From Spiroplasma attinicola (lineage in GTDB: Bacteria > Bacillota_I > Bacilli_A > Mycoplasmatales > VBWQ01), in NCBI RefSeq assembly GCF_023509825.1, contig NZ_JAKQXY010000001.1, forward strand, positions 372,001 through 436,000: a stretch of 64,000 bases of DNA, written 5' to 3'. The notes below the pieces were generated by a model, which did not search any database, was not told where the DNA came from, and worked only from the letters and a program-made list of their open reading frames with translations. The position numbers were made by a program, and so were the translations under genes. Position 1 is the stretch's first letter. Every line of letters starts with the position of its first letter. This document shows, one piece after another, positions 29,667 through 41,952 of the stretch.

Positions 29667-29729
29667 TTAACCACTTTTAAGACCAAAACTTGCTAATAAA
29701 GTTTTGATTTGATTATCAGTTAATTGTTG
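29649..29729 (-). repeat. Inverted 81-bp copy of part of the ABC-F gene
   Basis: Read on the minus strand this segment matches plus-strand 10609-10690 within the second ABC domain, with about five substitutions and a one-base deletion. The shared core GATAATCAAATCAAAACTTT and the following 30 bases are identical. It forms the 3' end of the small gene at 29667-30065, in the same reading frame, so that gene ends NQIKTLLASFGLKSG like the ABC-F segment NQIKTLLASFGLKGG. The missing base creates the stop codon. Confidence 0.88.
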
Positions 29730-30065
29730 AATTTTATTTTCAGTAATTTTTAAAAATAGAGGATTATTTTTACTTAAATATACTATTTTTTTATTAATAA
29801 TTCACTTATTTACTACTTGATCTCAAGAGATGGTTCTATAATAAATTGGTCTAATATATTGTTTTTGATTATTAATTATTAATGAGTGATATGTATGTTT
29901 ATTATTTTTTGTAGTTGATAATAATTGTAATTCTAAATGACTAGGAAATGATTTTATTATAATTCCTGGTCTATATTTTTGATTTCCGTTTATATCTTTA
30001 TCATCAGGATTTTTTATGTAAACTCCCATTCCTTTTTTAAATTCTTTATAATTAATATTTGTCAT
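29667..30065 (-). CDS. Small MazF/PemK-like protein with a borrowed C-terminus
   Basis: 132 aa. The first 90 residues (KKGMGVYIKNPDD, YRPGIIIKS, LELQLLSTT, YIRPIYYRTISWDQV) resemble the beta-strand order of MazF/PemK-fold endoribonucleases (a G-V start, then RPGI/V, then a strand with Thr/Ser). The resemblance is weak, and I see no certain catalytic residue. The last 20 residues come from an inverted fragment of the ABC-F gene. AGGAG lies 8 nt before ATG. No antitoxin gene is adjacent. Two TGA codons are Trp. It may be a truncated or pseudogenised gene. Confidence 0.5.
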
Positions 30066-30301: not shown

Positions 30302-31483
30302 TTAATTATTTAAATATGGAGTTAATTTAATAAAATTTGCAATTTGGTTACTATTTTTTCATTGGCAAAGTAGATTAAAACCAGTAAAAAGAAGATTATA
30401 AATAAAGACTAAATCTTTAAAAATTCCTTCGCATTGAACAATATATTGTTCACTACTAGTTTTTACTGCTTCTTTAAACCATAATTCAATTTCATCAGCA
30501 AATAAACTATTAATAATTTTTTCATAAAGATAATTTTCAATATAATTTATTTCTTTTGTAATATCTTCTTGATCAATTAAATGATTTAAATCACTTTTAT
30601 AAATAGATAAATCTTTAATGTCACTATCGCAAAAAGAAAAGCTAATGATTGATTCGCGAATAATTTTTTCAAGATTTCTAATAAAAAAGATTTCTTTTTC
30701 TGTTACTAAATTTATAGCTAATAAACTTGGTTTCAATAATTTTAAATATTCGGGACTGTTAGAAACAATAATAATGATTGTATTGCTTTCTTGATTGATT
30801 TTTTTTAAATAATTATTAATTTGATTAAGTAATTTTGGTGTGCCATATAATTCTGGTAAATCAAATAAAATTACTGTTGGTCTTAACTTATCTTTTTGTC
30901 GTGAAACATTATTTAAAATATTAAATAATAGAATTCTTAAAAATAAATGACTATAATTTTCTTCATCAATAATGTTTTCAATATTTTTATCATAAATTTC
31001 AATTTTTAACATTTTATCAACTAAATTACTAATTGAAAAAGATTCTATTTTTGGTTTTAAAATTAAATGATTTTTAATATTATTATCAGCATTTCAAAAA
31101 TATAATTTATTTAATAATCCTAAAAAGTCATTTTCAATTTTTTCCAAGTTTTTTGATAAATCTTTATATTGATCATCTTTTGTTGTGATTAATGCTTGAT
31201 TGAGATTCTGAATTAAATCATTACGAAATGATGAAGTTTTAGTTAATTTTAAATGTTCTTTTAAATTAAAATATTCTTTTAAATAAATAACTTGATAATT
31301 GTCAGTTGCTACTGGTTCATTATCAATGGTAAATTTATTATTTTTTCCCTTAAAACCTTTTTCTAAGGTATTTAATAAAGATGTTTTTCCAACACCATTA
31401 TCACCAATAATTATTGCCATATTATTATGAAGTTGAATAGTTTGTTCAGTAAAAAAACTATTAGAAAATTGTATTTGTTTCAT
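30302..31483 (-). CDS. csn2: Csn2-like CRISPR adaptation protein with intact P-loop
   Basis: 393 aa from the ATG at 31483; a TTG at 31498 is an alternative start. It is the fourth cas gene of the operon, 18 bp after cas2, where type II-A systems carry csn2. Csn2 forms a DNA-end-binding tetramer needed for spacer uptake. Unlike the roughly 220-aa classical Csn2, it has a complete Walker A (GDNGVGKT, residues 27-34) and a Walker B-like strand TVILFDLPE (near residue 208), joined by a helical, charged middle part. It resembles the longer Csn2 variants. Assignment rests on position and the ATPase-like fold, not on direct similarity. Confidence 0.72.
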
Positions 31484-31501
31484 TTTACTTTTTTCCAATC
31501 T

Positions 31502-31825
31502 TTAAAGTTCAATTAGATATTTATTCGTTGTAATTTCTTCTTGATATGATTTTGTACCAATAAGTACTTTCATCATTTCATATTGTTTTTCAGTAACAGT
31601 TAAGCAACGAATATTTCCTTTTGGTGGTAAATTTTTATTAATTATTTCATTATTTTTTGCTACTTCATCATGGTTAATACATAATTTTGCATAAATTGAA
31701 AGTTGTACCATATAAAATCCTAGATTTAATAGTTTTCTTCGAAATTTATTGTAATTTTGAACATCTTTTTTTGTCTTAACTGGTAAGTCAAACATAATAA
31801 ATAGTCGCATGTGTCTAAATCTCAT
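31502..31825 (-). CDS. cas2: CRISPR-associated endoribonuclease-fold protein Cas2
   Basis: 107 aa, ferredoxin-like fold, structural core of the Cas1-Cas2 integrase. The start MRFRHMRLFIMFDLPVKT aligns with the type II Cas2 beginning (Y/F-R-x-M-R-M/L...MFD-P), and NIRCLTVTEKQYEMM is the conserved last core segment. I chose the ATG at 31825 on that basis; in-frame ATGs at 31834 and 31852 also exist. The start overlaps the end of cas1 by 11 bp, so translation is likely coupled. Confidence 0.93.
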   Translation of the reverse strand: MRFRHMRLFIMFDLPVKTKKDVQNYNKFRRKLLNLGFYMVQLSIYAKLCINHDEVAKNNEIINKNLPPKGNIRCLTVTEKQYEMMKVLIGTKSYQEEITTNKYLIEL

Positions 31826-32753
31826 CTTGTTCATCAGAATTTTCTTCTTCAATTGGATTAAAATCTAGTACTGGTAGCTCTAATTTATTAGTATTATTCT
31901 CATTTAAAACTGTTATATAAGAACGAATCATATAATCAATCGCTTTAGTTATTGTGACATATTTCTTATTAATAATGACTTTGGAATTTAATAAATAATC
32001 AATTAGTTTTAAACGATGATCATAAGAAACATGTTCTGTTATTGTTTCAATATTTTTAGTTACTCAATAATCTACTAAAGGTCGTAAAGGTTCGATAAAA
32101 TCACATGCTAAATTATAAGGATTAGTTTTACCAATATGAAAAAGTCCTAAATAGTTGTTAAGACCATATTTGCTTATTGTTCTAGAAATTGCACCTGTTA
32201 ATATTTTATAACCATAATTTAAAGCATTATTAATTCCATCATCACTAAATCTAATAAAATTAGATCCATATAATTCACGAAAAAATACTTTAGCAACTAA
32301 TCCTTCACGATTTGTTTCATCACCAAAAGCTAAAGTTTTAATAAATCTCTCAATTGTTTCAATACTTTTTTCACGACATTTTAAAGTTTGCATAACTAGC
32401 AGGGTATTTTTTAGTTTATATTTAATAATTTCAGTTTTTAAAATTAATTTTTCATTTTCTGTGAAATTGAATTGTTTTTCAAAAACTAATAGCGGTTGTC
32501 AGTGTTGGTTTAATGATAAAGTTATACCAACTGGGTCATATTTATCATCACAAATAATGATAAATACATCATTAGTAACTAATTTAGCTAAGATTTGTGT
32601 TGTGATAAAGGTATAGTTGTTTTCTAAAATTATGCAATTAAGATCATTTAAACTAAATAATGCTTCTTTCTCTAGTGTTGTTACACATAGTTGATTTTGT
32701 TTTAATGATATTTTATCTGATTTTTTAATAATTATTGATTTTCATGAAATGAT
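31815..32753 (-). CDS. cas1: CRISPR integrase Cas1 (type II), probable non-AUG start
   Basis: 312-aa metal-dependent integrase that inserts new spacers at the leader end. The N-terminal beta domain has LCVTTLEKEALFSLNDL and IIICDDKYDPVGITLSLNQH. The helical catalytic domain has FRELYGSNFIRFSDDGINNALNYGYKIL (metal-binding Glu in REL/EL region), LGLFHIGKTNPYNLACDFIEPLRPLVD (H and D/E ligands) as in type II Cas1. No ATG opens the frame. AGGAGG (32759-32764) is followed by ATC at 32753 and ATT at 32750, both allowed starts in code 4. A GTG at 32759 overlaps the Shine-Dalgarno itself. Two TGA codons are Trp. Confidence 0.94.
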
Positions 32754-32772
32754 TTTCACCTCCTATTTTTAA

Positions 32773-32851: not shown

Positions 32852-33027
32852 AATAATAATTACACAAAAATGTCGGTGGACTAAAATCCCCTCCTTGACT
32901 TTTATTACTAATTAATTTTAATTTTACACAAAGATATTAACGGATTATTAATTTTATATAAATAATATTAACATAAAAATATTTTTATTTTATATAAATT
33001 TCCATAAAAATGTCAGCGGACTAAAAC
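32852..33027 (-). repeat. Decayed CRISPR repeats at the trailer end
   Basis: At least three degenerate repeats precede the first intact one. 32992-33027 keeps the half AAAAATGTCAGCGGACTAAA perfectly but has lost the other half. 32915-32950 keeps only the TTAATTTTACACAAA half. 32852-32887 has GTCGGTGG in place of GTCAGCGG. The distance from 33027 to the first intact repeat is a normal 30-nt spacer. Decay at this end marks it as the old, leader-distal end. Confidence 0.82.
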
Positions 33028-33057
33028 TCATATTTTGTTTTAATACTTTAACCAAAC

Positions 33058-36000
33058 GTTTAATTTTACACAAAAATGTCAGCGGACTAAAACTAGCGCG
33101 TATATATTACTGCGCCTTTTTCGGTTTAATTTTACACAAAAATGTCAGCGGACTAAAACTAAATTTATGATTATAAGAAACTGATGCTTGTTTAATTTTA
33201 CACAAAAATGTCAGCGGACTAAAACTGTTTCTACAGAAAAAGAAACATTATTATCGTTTAATTTTACACAAAAATGTCAGCGGACTAAAACCGAAGGTTT
33301 AACTTCAATATTCTTTTTGTAGTTTAATTTTACACAAAAATGTCAGCGGACTAAAACAAAAGAACCTTACCCTTCGGCCGATTGTGAGTTTAATTTTACA
33401 CAAAAATGTCAGCGGACTAAAACATGTTCTGTATGTCGAAAAATAAACACGCGGTTTAATTTTACACAAAAATGTCAGCGGACTAAAACGCTGGGGGTCG
33501 ATTTTTGCGTCGTCTGGCGGTTTAATTTTACACAAAAATGTCAGCGGACTAAAACGATGTTCGCAGATGCTTCTTTGCGTGCTTGGTTTAATTTTACACA
33601 AAAATGTCAGCGGACTAAAACGCGATTTCTCACATCCTTTCTTGTTTGTTGGTTTAATTTTACACAAAAATGTCAGCGGACTAAAACAGAAGCAATTATG
33701 GAGTGAGAAAATGAAAAGTTTAATTTTACACAAAAATGTCAGCGGACTAAAACTGGCTGGTTTTCTGGGCGATAATGGCTGAAGTTTAATTTTACACAAA
33801 AATGTCAGCGGACTAAAACTGAATTCCCATATGAATTATTATTAACAAGGTTTAATTTTACACAAAAATGTCAGCGGACTAAAACGATTACCTAATAGTT
33901 CTGCTTCTGGAGATAGTTTAATTTTACACAAAAATGTCAGCGGACTAAAACTTTAAGCAGTGTCCAAGTATTATTACCTGCGTTTAATTTTACACAAAAA
34001 TGTCAGCGGACTAAAACTTTAGACAAGCGATTATGGAGTGAGAAAATGTTTAATTTTACACAAAAATGTCAGCGGACTAAAACTTTCATTCAATATATTT
34101 ATACAATTAATTTGTTTAATTTTACACAAAAATGTCAGCGGACTAAAACCGATTGGGGGGGGGGGGGTAGTAAAAGGTCCCTTAGTTTAATTTTACACAA
34201 AAATGTCAGCGGACTAAAACAAACGGAACAGCTTATATAAAAAAAAAGGGTTTAATTTTACACAAAAATGTCAGCGGACTAAAACTAGGCGGGTTCCGGT
34301 TCCCTGTGAGGACCTGTTTAATTTTACACAAAAATGTCAGCGGACTAAAACTTGTCGGCAACCAATAAGACCGATAATCAGGTTTAATTTTACACAAAAA
34401 TGTCAGCGGACTAAAACAAATATATTGAGAAAGAAAAAAAATTATGAGTTTAATTTTACACAAAAATGTCAGCGGACTAAAACACTTCAATTAATGTATC
34501 TTGATGTCTAATAGTTTAATTTTACACAAAAATGTCAGCGGACTAAAACGTATTCCAAGTTCTATTACAATTATGAACCGTTTAATTTTACACAAAAATG
34601 TCAGCGGACTAAAACCCTGCCTAAAAAGATATTACGATCTTTTTTGTTTAATTTTACACAAAAATGTCAGCGGACTAAAACTTATAAACCACATTTTAAC
34701 TGACTTCCACAGTTTAATTTTACACAAAAATGTCAGCGGACTAAAACTTTCATCAAAATCTAATATTTTATCTTTTTGTTTAATTTTACACAAAAATGTC
34801 AGCGGACTAAAACTGCAAAAAATAACATATGATCGTGATTGTCGTTTAATTTTACACAAAAATGTCAGCGGACTAAAACAAAATCAAAGTTTTTATTTTT
34901 TAAAAAATTGTTTAATTTTACACAAAAATGTCAGCGGACTAAAACTATATAAAAATGATTCTTTAGAATCTGAAAGTTTAATTTTACACAAAAATGTCAG
35001 CGGACTAAAACAATGTGAAAATTTGAAATTAGCTGCAATTAGTTTAATTTTACACAAAAATGTCAGCGGACTAAAACAATAATTATTTTCTTTTTTCTTT
35101 GGTTTATGTTTAATTTTACACAAAAATGTCAGCGGACTAAAACTTTCATTATTAATTATTTCTAAAGGTTTAAGTTTAATTTTACACAAAAATGTCAGCG
35201 GACTAAAACAACTCCGCTAAATACTTCCAAAACAATCAAGTTTAATTTTACACAAAAATGTCAGCGGACTAAAACCTTTGTCGGCCGCCGGCCGCCTTTC
35301 TTTTTGTTTAATTTTACACAAAAATGTCAGCGGACTAAAACTTATAACGAATATAGATTCTCTGAAATAGAGTTTAATTTTACACAAAAATGTCAGCGGA
35401 CTAAAACATATACGACTATTGGAATAACGATGCCGGTGTTTAATTTTACACAAAAATGTCAGCGGACTAAAACTAAAAAGTTAAAATTCTGAATAAAAAA
35501 CGGGTTTAATTTTACACAAAAATGTCAGCGGACTAAAACGGTTACCCTCCAGATATTTATGCGATCAATGTTTAATTTTACACAAAAATGTCAGCGGACT
35601 AAAACGGTTACCCTCCAGATATTTATGCGATCAATGTTTAATTTTACACAAAAATGTCAGCGGACTAAAACTTTTATTAAGTCCCGGTAGTTGTTAAATA
35701 AGTTTAATTTTACACAAAAATGTCAGCGGACTAAAACGGGGGGTGGTTTGTAAAAGGTCCCTTAATTGTTTAATTTTACACAAAAATGTCAGCGGACTAA
35801 AACTCGTTGATTTCCCGTATTGGTGATTTCGTTGTTTAATTTTACACAAAAATGTCAGCGGACTAAAACTTTCTTCCGCTGTTGGTTTGTCTGCTGGGTG
35901 TTTAATTTTACACAAAAATGTCAGCGGACTAAAACTATGTTCTCGCTCACTTGCTAACTCTTAATGTTTAATTTTACACAAAAATGTCAGCGGACTAAAA

Positions 36001-38316
36001 CCAAAGTTCATTTTAAAATACCTCTTTTTTTGTTTAATTTTACACAAAAATGTCAGCGGACTAAAACTTTCGCCACTTTTAGAAAGTTTAATTTTTCGTT
36101 TAATTTTACACAAAAATGTCAGCGGACTAAAACTGTCGTTGCTTACATTTCCCGCTTCAAACTGTTTAATTTTACACAAAAATGTCAGCGGACTAAAACC
36201 CCGCTCGGTTCCGTTGTCATAAAACGGGAGTTTAATTTTACACAAAAATGTCAGCGGACTAAAACTGACATATGTAATTATAGACATAAATGTCTGTTTA
36301 ATTTTACACAAAAATGTCAGCGGACTAAAACTTTATTTTTTCGTCAAAGTTCATTTTTTTTGTTTAATTTTACACAAAAATGTCAGCGGACTAAAACGAA
36401 GTCCAGTTTTTCTTTTCGCTTGATGTCGTTTAATTTTACACAAAAATGTCAGCGGACTAAAACCCAAGTGAGTCAATACCGACCCTGTTTGTTGTTTAAT
36501 TTTACACAAAAATGTCAGCGGACTAAAACTATTGATTTAAAAGTTGTATCATTAAATACGTTTAATTTTACACAAAAATGTCAGCGGACTAAAACCTTGA
36601 TATCGTTACTTACATTTCCCGCTTCGTTTAATTTTACACAAAAATGTCAGCGGACTAAAACTTTTAGTTGGTTGGTCTTTTCAATCAATTGGTTTAATTT
36701 TACACAAAAATGTCAGCGGACTAAAACTTGTCTTTTGTAGTCATTGCTTCCCGTTCCGTTTAATTTTACACAAAAATGTCAGCGGACTAAAACTTAATTT
36801 TTACTGGAATTAATTCAATTCCAGTTTAATTTTACACAAAAATGTCAGCGGACTAAAACAAGCACAAATCGACAGACTTTCATTTCATCGTTTAATTTTA
36901 CACAAAAATGTCAGCGGACTAAAACGGGAGCATTTACGGTTACCCACCAAGCATTGTTTAATTTTACACAAAAATGTCAGCGGACTAAAACGATTTTCGG
37001 AGGGGGGGTGGTTAGTAAAAGTTTAATTTTACACAAAAATGTCAGCGGACTAAAACTAAAAACTCAAGCGGTCAATTTGTGCTTGTAGTTTAATTTTACA
37101 CAAAAATGTCAGCGGACTAAAACCGGAAATGCAAAGTTTACTTTTAAAACAGGGTTTAATTTTACACAAAAATGTCAGCGGACTAAAACAAAGGGGGGGG
37201 GTGGTTAGTAAAAGGTCCCGTTTAATTTTACACAAAAATGTCAGCGGACTAAAACGCTGGGGGTCGATTTTTGCGTCGTCTGGCGGTTTAATTTTACACA
37301 AAAATGTCAGCGGACTAAAACGTATTTGTTATTTCATTCTGATAAAAACTTGTTTAATTTTACACAAAAATGTCAGCGGACTAAAACCAGTTCTTCCTGC
37401 TGATAGGTAAATATTACGTTTAATTTTACACAAAAATGTCAGCGGACTAAAACAAGTCAGTCATTGCTCCAGTAAGTATATTTGTTTAATTTTACACAAA
37501 AATGTCAGCGGACTAAAACCCGATTTTCGGGGGGGGGGGGTTGGTAAAGGGTCCGTTTAATTTTACACAAAAATGTCAGCGGACTAAAACAGGCATAAAA
37601 AAAGAAGAAAAAAAATAAAGGTTTAATTTTACACAAAAATGTCAGCGGACTAAAACGCCTTTAAAAAATGCTGACATATGTAATTAGTTTAATTTTACAC
37701 AAAAATGTCAGCGGACTAAAACAAAATGCGAAAAGCAAGCGAAATTACATTAGTTTAATTTTACACAAAAATGTCAGCGGACTAAAACCAAAATTCATTT
37801 TTTAAAGTCTCCGTTTTCGTTTAATTTTACACAAAAATGTCAGCGGACTAAAACAAATCGCTTTAAATCTTTGTAAAAATAAATGTTTAATTTTACACAA
37901 AAATGTCAGCGGACTAAAACTGATAATTATTTTGGTATAAATAAAAAAGCGTTTAATTTTACACAAAAATGTCAGCGGACTAAAACGCTACTAATAGCAA
38001 TGCTACTTACCTTGCCGTTTAATTTTACACAAAAATGTCAGCGGACTAAAACTGAAAGCTTAAGCTTTAAGCCTGAAACTAAGTTTAATTTTACACAAAA
38101 ATGTCAGCGGACTAAAACATACCGTATGAAAATATGCTCTTTTTATTTGTTTAATTTTACACAAAAATGTCAGCGGACTAAAACTTCTCTGCGCGTTGTT
38201 AAGTTGTTTTTTTCGTTTAATTTTACACAAAAATGTCAGCGGACTAAAACAAAAATGACTTTTGAAGCGAATTTAAATTTGTTTAATTTTACACAAAAAT
38301 GTCAGCGGACTAAAAC
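33058..38316 (-). CRISPR. Type II CRISPR array, 80 intact repeats and 79 spacers
   Basis: Eighty 36-nt repeats, identical as far as I could check. On the transcribed (minus) strand they begin GTTTTAGTCCGCTGACATTT and end GTAAAATTAAAC, the usual GTTTTAG...AAAC form of type II repeats. The unit is 66 bp with 30-nt spacers. Exceptions are 34150-34184 and 37520-37554 (35 nt), 34221-34249 and 36992-37020 (29 nt) and 37057-37087 (31 nt). Two spacer pairs are identical: 33490 with 37256, and 35540 with 35606. Many spacers are clearly more GC-rich than the host. Decayed repeats at the low-coordinate end and a leader at 38317-38380 fix the polarity: newest spacers are near 38250. The many apparent ORFs in this region are repeat artefacts. 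Confidence 0.98.
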
Positions 38317-38424: not shown

Positions 38425-41400
38425 CTAATTTGTAACTAATTTTCCTAAAATATTAGGTTTTACTATTTTAAATTCTTGTTGTCAGTTATTTATACTATCA
38501 TAATAATTAGGATTACCAAATATTTCTTTATTTTTATTTAAGTTTTGAATATTAGTTGTACCTAATAAATTTGCATAAACAGACGCACCCATTCTACCAT
38601 TAAATAATTTAATAACTTTTCTATTAGTTTTCTTATCATAATATTCAACTAAAGTTCTAAGTACTAAAATATTTTGTTTTTTATATTTATTTAATTCTTC
38701 TTTTGTAGCGTTAATTCTTCTAATTCAAATTGGTTTGAAGTTATGTTGTTGATCAAATATAACACCATAATAGCTATTAATTTCTCATAGTGTATTATTT
38801 TTATCTTTAAAATAAGATTCACTATTAATGTCTTTTTTAATTTTATCATGTGATACAGGTAATTGACTTGAAGTAAAACCACCTGAAAGTTTATAGTCAA
38901 TTTTATAAGAAATGAAAGGATAATGAATATTACCTTTTAAGTTTAGTTCTTTAAGTTTGTCATAATAACTTTCTTGATTTAAAACTTCAACAAATTTTGG
39001 AGTTTTAATTGGTTTAAAAACTGTATCTTGAGAGTTTTTTAGTTTAAATTCTTTGTTTTCTTTTTTAATTTTTAAACTCACAGGAATTCTAGTTTCAATA
39101 ATTTCTTGCAAGTTTTTTACTAGAGGTGCCATTACTTTAAAGTTACTAATTTCTTTGTTAATTAACTTTTCTAAGCGTCTACCTAAATCATCTCGTAATT
39201 TTCCAATTGTTCATTTTTTTAAAATTTCGTCACAATGATTTTTGTATTGTGATTGATTTATGAAACCTTTAGATAAACTTCTTTTTAAATTAATAATATT
39301 AGCACTATCAGTAGCAAAGTTTACATAAGTTACAGAAATAAATTGGGTTAAAATCATTGCATCAACGGCATGATGGAATGGAGTTATTTCTCTTACTTTT
39401 TCATCTAAGCCTCAAGGACTATTATTAAGTCAAGTGCGGCGAAATCTTGAAGTAACACCACCGTTAATTGTTTGTACTTTTGTTGGAATTACTTCACCAG
39501 TGATTTCTGTTCAATTTTTAAATTGTGAATTTAATCAATTGGCAACATAACGAGTAATGTATCTAGTATCATTTAAGTTTCTTGAAGCAAATTCATCAAT
39601 CATTTCAGAATCTAAATCTTTAGTTATTAGATATTGGTATTTTTTATCAGAAAGATTTTTTCTAATAACTTTATTAATAAAGTTTAAGTATGAAGTTTTA
39701 TGCTCTTTATTAGTTGCTAATCATTGCAATGGTGTTTGATTTGTTTTTTCTTGATTAGCTTTACTACAAACTAAAACTAAATTGTTAAATGAATCATCGG
39801 CTATTTTTGATTGTGGAATAATATGATCAATCTGTAAGGCATTGCTATTTTTAAAGTCATCTAAAGTAATTTCATGATGATTTTGACAATAAATACATTT
39901 TTGTTCTTGTTGTTTTCATAACCGATATTTTTTAATATTAATTTCTTTTGGGTCAATATTATTATTATCTAATTCATGTTGAATTTTTAATTTTTCGTCA
40001 AAACGAAGGTCATTAGATTTTTTGATTTCTTTTCTTTGTTCAAAAGATTTCATTAATTCTCTTGCTACTTCAACATTAATTATTTCAAATCAACCATATT
40101 CTTGATGTAGAGCATTAATAATTTTTCTTGTTTGATTAATTGCTCTAAATACGACAGCATTCTTTTGTAAGTCTGGATCATTAATTGGTTGAAATAACTT
40201 ATTACTAATTTTAAAATTAAACATTTTTTCTTCATTCTTTTCAACAAAATCAGCTTGAAAATTACCATATGAAATCCCTTTAGCAAAAGCATTAATTGCT
40301 TCTTCCATGTATTTAAAAGAAGTGTTTCCTGTACTTGTACTAATAGAAGAAGGTAAGCCTAAAAATTTTTCTTCAATTTGTTTTTCAGTTAAATCAATTT
40401 TATTTTCCTTGAAAAATAAGATTAAGTTATCTTTTCTTCTTTGCGGAGTGATATTTTCATGAAGAATTTTACCTAGTTTGTTAAATAAATGATTATTTAA
40501 ACTACTAATATCTATTGTTTTAAATTCATTTGGAATTAGTTCTTTTAATAATTTTAAATAATTAAAATTAACAGATTTAATATTTTTTCATGCTGGATTA
40601 TTAGTAAAGTCAGTTTCACTAAGTTCAGTGTTTTCTTTAATAATTTTTTTTAAATCATTTTTACTGGGAATTATTCCTTGTTTAAGATTATCAAAGAATA
40701 TTTTGGCAATGTTACTAGTTGTTCCTTCATCAAGGCTTTTAACAGTAAAAGTTGATAAATCAGAAATAAAACGGAATAGTTCAAATGTTAAAGAACAACG
40801 ATAAGCTCTTGGTTCGTTAGGATAAAATGAACATTTACCTTCGGTTTCTAAAAATGGTTGAAAAAGACGATGACTTGGCATATTTTTTGCTCATAAGTCA
40901 TATTTTTCCTTATTTTTCGGTCCTGGTCCTTCTTCAAAATCTCGTTGTCGTAAAATAATATCATTAATAATTTTATTACGATTACTTTCATTTGCTAGTT
41001 GCGGATAAAATTTGCCTTGAGTTGTTAAAATTAATTCTAATTCTTTTTTGTAATCTTCACGAGCAAATAAATAACGATAGTTAGAAACCGGAGTTTTTGT
41101 TTGTTCTTGATTGTTTTCATTAGTAATTTGTTTATCATTAGATTTTTTAATTTTATTATGAATTAAACCCAAAGTTCCTTGATTTTTTGAGTTTTTAAAA
41201 TCTTGTTCATTTAAAATAGCTTGAGCGATTGTTTGATAATTTTTAACAATCTTTTCACCTTTACTAATTGATTCACTTAATTTACTTTTTTTATTTTCTT
41301 TTTCTTCACCAAAAGAAAATTTATCATTATAACCACGATGATTAGCAATATTAATTAATGCTACTGCTAGTTCTTGTGGTGTTAACTTTTCGGTTAAAGC

Positions 41401-41757
41401 TTTTACTCTAATTGTATAGGGATTAAAATATTTTGTATCATCATATTGAATATTGTTAGTAATTTTAAAATTACTAAAAAAATCAGCAATTTCAGATTTT
41501 GAGATAATTTGATTTTTTTCTAAGAAATTTTTTAATTCATTGATTCTTTGTTTTCTACGACGGTTTAGTCTTCTAGCACTACGAAATTTTCTTCTTTCTT
41601 CAGCATTAGTTGTTCCATCTTTTGGACTTTCAGCACAATCAAAGAGTCTGACACCAAAATCATCAATATAATAGTCATCTTCATCTTTAGTCATAACTGC
41701 TCACCCGACAGAAGAGATACCAAGATCAAGACCAAGATAATATTTTTTATTATTCAT
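38425..41757 (-). CDS. cas9: CRISPR effector nuclease Cas9
   Basis: 1110-aa RNA-guided DNA endonuclease, uninterrupted when TGA is Trp. RuvC-I is YYLGLDLGISSVGWAV with D11. An Arg-rich bridge helix follows (about residues 52-72, RRLNRRRKQRI), then a compact recognition lobe. RuvC-II is NVEVAREL with E563. HNH is ALQIDHIIPQS with H645, preceded by the pair CIYC. RuvC-III is FHHAVDAMIL with H796 and D799. The PAM-interacting domain is the last 200 or so residues. All catalytic residues are present, so it should cut. At 1110 aa it is shorter than S. pyogenes Cas9. AGGAGG lies 5 nt before the ATG; a TATAAT at 41803-41808 is a likely -10. Confidence 0.97.
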
Positions 41758-41825: not shown

Positions 41826-41952
41826 ATAAAAGAGGTAATCCTTAAAAAGAATTACCTCGCTTAGGCTTTACGGATACCTTACCGCTCAGGGACTAAGACC
41901 TTTATCTTACTCCGCTAACATTTTTGTGTAAAAGCCTTTGGCAACCAAAGAC
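41826..41952 (-). ncRNA. tracrRNA
   Basis: About 127 nt upstream of cas9 on the same strand. The anti-repeat TTTTACACAAAAATGTTAGC plus GGA (23 nt) pairs with the crRNA repeat with one G-U pair. After a small bulge, TAAGAT pairs with the GTTTTA that begins each repeat, giving the standard lower stem, bulge and upper stem. Next come AAGGTCTTAGTCC, resembling the nexus of other type II-A tracrRNAs, and a 12-bp terminator hairpin GAGGTAATTCTT/AAGGATTACCTC (41832-41858) with TTTT. A short hairpin CTTTGG/CCAAAG sits at the 5' end before the anti-repeat. Confidence 0.93.

Follow-up and report, generated by a model that had tools for sequence, protein, structure and literature searches.

The sequence analysed here (the window) is a 64,000-nt stretch of Spiroplasma attinicola (GCF_023509825.1, NZ_JAKQXY010000001.1, positions 372,001–436,000 of the forward strand). 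Its genes read TGA as Trp, which fits a Spiroplasma-like Mollicute, and its minus strand carries a type II CRISPR-Cas locus, apparently of subtype II-A, that seems complete and intact (Table 1). Profile matches identify a Cas9 with RuvC and HNH domains together with Cas1 and Cas2, the gene set of a type II system, and the tracrRNA of such a system would be provided by a predicted RNA whose anti-repeat matches the repeat complement at 22 of 24 positions and whose fold is stable (MFE z −3.08). A repeat-like copy at 32852 had also been considered as the anti-repeat and was dropped in favour of this one. The arrangement cas9–array–cas1–cas2–csn2-position gene recurs at L154 and L155, two further loci from the same order. 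The csn2-position protein matched none of the Csn2 family models, giving only weak ABC/AAA similarity; its homologues adjoin or follow cas2 in loci L152–L156. Next to this gene lies a 132-aa ORF (29667–30065) with no family match that looks slightly MazF/PemK-like by eye. No Cas9 was detected in the family's eight remaining genomes, and the nearest relatives of the S. attinicola Cas9 are about 40% identical (40–41%) and come from another family of the order, a distribution that suggests horizontal gain or repeated loss.

Table 1. Features of the CRISPR-Cas locus in the window, and off-length spacers found in other Mollicutes arrays
Feature	Position	Strand	Details
csn2-position protein	30302-31498	-	398 aa; ATPase (ABC-like) similarity; weak ABC_tran
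cas2	31502-31852	-	TIGR01573, E 6.4e-20
cas1	31815-32759	-	TIGR03639 type II Cas1, E 5.7e-74
CRISPR array	32992-38316	-	80 perfect 36-bp repeats, one degenerate repeat, 80 spacers
Spacer s18	34150-34184	+	35 nt; G13 at 34155-34167; CGATT-G13-TAGTAAAAGGTCCCTTA; crRNA = minus strand
Spacer s42	35738-35767	+	30 nt; G6 at 35738-35743; begins within tract
Spacer s61	36992-37020	+	29 nt; G7 at 37002-37008; GATTTTC through GTAAAA
Spacer s64	37190-37219	+	30 nt; G9 at 37193-37201; left side AAA, not GATTTTC
Spacer s69	37520-37554	+	35 nt; G12 at 37529-37540; CCGATTTTC-G12-TTGGTAAAGGGTCC
cas9	38425-41757	-	1110 aa, TGA as Trp; TIGR01865, E 9.4e-172; HNH_4 and RuvC_III matched
Predicted tracrRNA	41835-41945	-	upstream of cas9; anti-repeat and hairpins
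Off-length spacer, L158 spacer 10			27 nt (-3); C7 run
Off-length spacer, L168 spacer 24			27 nt (-3); one ATT unit lost
Off-length spacer, L176 spacer 1			42 nt (+12); one 12-bp unit gained

The perfect repeats span 33058–38316, preceded by the degenerate repeat at 32992–33027, and all 80 are identical to each other; 75 of the 80 spacers measure exactly 30 nt. We infer that the crRNA sense is the minus strand, because of the GTTTTAG with which the repeat starts and because of the tracrRNA anti-repeat, and the leader end is therefore placed at 38316. Past the degenerate terminal repeat, decaying repeat-like copies occur at 32852–32990 (27/36 at 32852, weaker near 32916) and are probably remnants of an older array at the trailer end. 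Two pairs of spacers are identical: the adjacent s39 (35540–35569) and s40 (35606–35635), attributable to tandem duplication, and s08 (33490–33519) and s65 (37256–37285), which lie 57 units apart and may stem from re-acquisition or recombination. Mean G+C is 33.6% in the spacers and 25.2% in the window. Individual spacers (33028–38280) range from 7% (s29) to 66% (s69), and several that lack a G run reach 50–63%; in a window of 25% G+C, this spread suggests that the targets differ among themselves in base composition.

The CRISPR-Cas system itself is of a known kind. Systems described in 2019 (PMC6882279) resemble that of S. attinicola in having 36-bp repeats, Cas9 with Cas1 and Cas2, a gene at the csn2 position, a tracrRNA and large arrays. 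They also share identical spacers that recur, there in several species, and a lack of database matches for most spacers; as far as it was searched, the paper does not discuss spacer length or slippage. Relative to those systems, the S. attinicola array differs in holding five non-identical spacers on one site, two of them 35 nt long.

Extraction of the array confirmed the five spacers, with runs of 6 to 13 Gs, that the initial annotation had listed. Each of the five (s18, s42, s61, s64 and s69, of 80) has a G run followed by DGTAAARGGTCC, and runs of six or more Gs or Cs occur nowhere else in the 64-kb window. Four of them continue into the right flank DGTAAA(A/G)GGTCC, while s61 ends at GTAAAA. 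On the opposite side, where the initial annotation had seen a flank common to two spacers, GATTTTCGG is indeed shared by s61 and s69, and s18 has the shorter CGATT. With up to three mismatches, GGTTAGTAAAAGGTCC occurs five times against 0.33 expected, and none of 100 shuffles reached five occurrences. When anchored on the right at GTAAA, the five spacers align without gaps over the part they share, with substitutions at four columns; taking s64 as reference, and within the shared part only, these are T>G (−6), T>G (−3), A>T or A>G (−1) and A>G (+5). All five have the same orientation (chance 1 in 16). Their ends are staggered, the several offsets and small variations noted initially are borne out, and each spacer contains target sequence private to it, such as ATT in s42 and CCGATTTTC in s69. 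Overlapping spacers with staggered ends that resemble one another beyond chance are what several spacers drawn from one site look like.

We infer from the array that the five spacers had a common target. Staggered ends and spacer-private target sequence point to separate captures and not to copies made in the array, and it is well supported that the five spacers were taken independently from a single homologous segment shared by related invaders. The earlier proposal of one protospacer region in one invader or its variants thus agrees with the array, through the common strand, the staggered ends and the few substitutions. Exact duplicates do exist in this array, both adjacent and 57 units apart, but duplication of one spacer followed by divergence is extremely unlikely to have produced all five, since it is contradicted by the staggered ends and the private sequences, and the identity of all 80 repeats leaves little room for mutation within the array.

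In type II-A systems, Cas1–Cas2 acts with Csn2 and Cas9 to capture 30-bp pieces adjoining a PAM. Under separate capture, the S. attinicola system would have taken at least five spacers, at different times, from one G-run segment of about 40 bp, sampled at several offsets by Cas1–Cas2 with Csn2 and Cas9. Array position suggests that capture started with s18 and ended with s69. The source would be a family of related, unsequenced invaders that returned often.

Other spacers overlap as well (s11/s16, s48/s55, s50/s71 and, less clearly, s59/s62, which lie on opposite strands). Because overlapping pairs number 0–8 in other Mollicutes arrays, as against 8 in the S. attinicola array, recapture as such is ordinary; its concentration on one site is unusual. 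Counting five pairs of this kind, the identical s08/s65 included, as recaptures, a uniform sampling model fits a target pool of about 15–30 kb, in which a five-member cluster has a P of 0.0005–0.0025 (about 0.001–0.0025 at 15–20 kb). These values are indicative, since pairs and cluster alike were picked once the array had been inspected. This moderately supports denser sampling of the G-run segment than of the array's remaining targets. The initial annotation had proposed a sampling hotspot or primed acquisition, and it is the hotspot part that gains this moderate support. Classical primed acquisition is a type I phenomenon. In type II-A systems, acquisition hotspots are associated with free DNA ends and cleavage-driven acquisition, and like the S. 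attinicola array they yield several spacers from one short region.

The segment itself was sought in several collections. It had no match in the host genome (the array itself aside), nor within the family or among 317–320 genomes of the order when mismatches were allowed. INPHARED phages gave no match with DNA or peptide queries, and two array-half searches were only marginal (E 0.08 or worse); the PLSDB plasmids gave none with 25 complex spacers as queries. Nor did IMG/VR or GTDB contigs yield a target when scanned for exact patterns: seven IMG/VR matches had a 16-mer alone in common with the target and were rejected, and none of the loci from two further IMG/VR scans contains a spacer match exceeding chance. 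Partial matches of s23, s66 and s72 in other Mollicutes (24–25 of 30 positions, AT-rich) were likewise taken as chance. A Spiroplasma plectrovirus, which the initial annotation had suggested as the invader, is unsupported: neither SpV1-R8A2B, SpV1-C74, SVTS2 and SkV1 nor five IMG/VR plectrovirus contigs and SpV4 gave a match above shuffled controls in DNA or peptide. The five spacers carry G6–G13, whereas the four plectrovirus genomes and five contigs contain no run of six or more Gs or Cs, and the microvirus SpV4 none of five or more. The predicted hits in phages, plasmids or spiroplasma genomes, with varying G-tract length and a shared PAM, were thus absent from the collections searched, and protospacers with a shared PAM were found in no known element there. 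Matches confined to this array had been named as grounds for rejecting a common target; that is indeed the outcome, yet it weighs little when the phage may be unsampled. Flanks reconstructed from overlapping spacers (s50, s48, s11 and s59) hint at an A as the third base of the 3′ flank in crRNA sense; the hint comes from by-eye reading of four cases, s42 does not fit it, and no PAM was derived.

The segment is plausibly coding. On the plus strand, four of the five spacers share one open frame, giving (P)IFGGGG(W)LVKGPLI-like peptides, in which the TTA>TTG and AAA>AAG substitutions are silent; s61 is out of this frame by one position, and the minus strand, too, has an open frame. This bears on an alternative in which a single invader carried the segment in several diverged copies, which would make both a hotspot and a series of variants unnecessary. 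The left flanks do differ (GATTTTC, CGATT, AAA) while the right flanks agree, as copies of a dispersed repeat might; however, a frame that stays open in four of the five suits a gene better, and we regard such a repeat family as unlikely.

Long G runs of this sort are present in the host genome too. A G13 run, encoding Gly4 at the tract, lies in a DPPY-type N6/N4 DNA methylase ORF (G000:C1:617600; L204:1097-2767) of 556 aa that is followed by a helicase-like ORF, and which looks like a phase-variable restriction-modification gene. A C11 run (G000:C2:175334; L208:1501-1511) stands about 60 bp upstream of the gene for a repeat-rich, probably secreted protein and resembles a promoter contingency tract. 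A congener (G001) has two similarly placed G12–13 runs (L191 and L197). Given contingency-like G runs of 11–13 within the genus, a phase-variable coding tract in an invader gene is a fair guess for the captured G run, if a speculative one; unlike the tracts of poly-G contingency loci, that of the target may be interrupted (GGGTGG, GGAGGG).

The lengths of the spacers add a point that was absent from the initial annotation: the two longest runs, G13 in s18 and G12 in s69, lie in the 35-nt spacers, each 5 nt over the usual length. We surveyed this array with 27 other Mollicutes type II arrays (28 arrays, 1207 unique spacers). Exactly 30 nt was the length of 1151 spacers (95%), and only five deviated by at least 3 nt. 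All five contain a G/C run or tandem repeat, compared with 22 of the remaining 1202 (Fisher P 3.8e-9, or 5.6e-6 leaving out the S. attinicola array, under a repeat definition fixed after the data had been seen). None of the 1180 non-repeat spacers was off by 3 nt or more, and with homopolymers of at least 9 the length was aberrant in 5 of 9. Aberrant spacer length is therefore linked to homopolymers and tandem repeats across the 28 Mollicutes arrays. No MutS was found in the S. attinicola genome, in a search whose control was positive in 11 of 14 genomes.

With off-lengths tied to repeats and no MutS match, slippage inside the array would be the simplest cause, and we consider it probable that the G runs of s18 and s69 slipped after capture, in a host without detected MutS. 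The slipped memories would then no longer be exact copies of their target. Counting against this, the distance between GATT and GTAAA is almost equal in s69 (22, in a 35-nt spacer) and s61 (23, in a 29-nt spacer), and if the native tract was that long s69 did not expand; a gain of 5 in both long spacers would also be a coincidence. The same observations favour capture of both spacers at 35 nt, the Cas1–Cas2 ruler or end-trimming having misread a G12–13 protospacer, perhaps through conformationally unusual G-run DNA, with a faithful array copy thereafter; with s18 and s64, the span in s69 yields a 12-nt tract common to all three and in a single reading frame. But the ruler is otherwise strict, as the non-repeat spacers attest, and the other off-length repeat spacers shrink as well as grow, in repeat units, which makes over-long capture the main alternative, though a doubtful one. 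Errors of sequencing or assembly are very unlikely to account for the odd lengths: long G runs are error-prone, but the genomic G13 keeps its methylase ORF open, a gain of 5 occurring twice is large, and homopolymer error does not explain the 12-bp unit gained in another genome.

Slippage of stored spacers and of an invader contingency tract could also act together, a combination we hold to be quite unlikely. The G tract would lie within the PAM-proximal seed or close to it. Slippage in the invader would then break matching and allow escape, forcing the same site to be recaptured again and again, while the stored spacers would slip as well in a host without MutS. If true, a microsatellite clock would drive CRISPR memory and target alike.

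The novelty of the array is modest and lies in simple-repeat spacers whose length breaks with the 30-nt ruler, in some cases by whole units; a narrow literature search found no earlier report of repeat-linked spacer decay. These results suggest that, where the host has no mismatch repair, slippage erodes those CRISPR memories that contain simple repeats. The repeated sampling of one site would, for its part, document an invader, unseen and diversifying, of a bacterium with a reduced genome.
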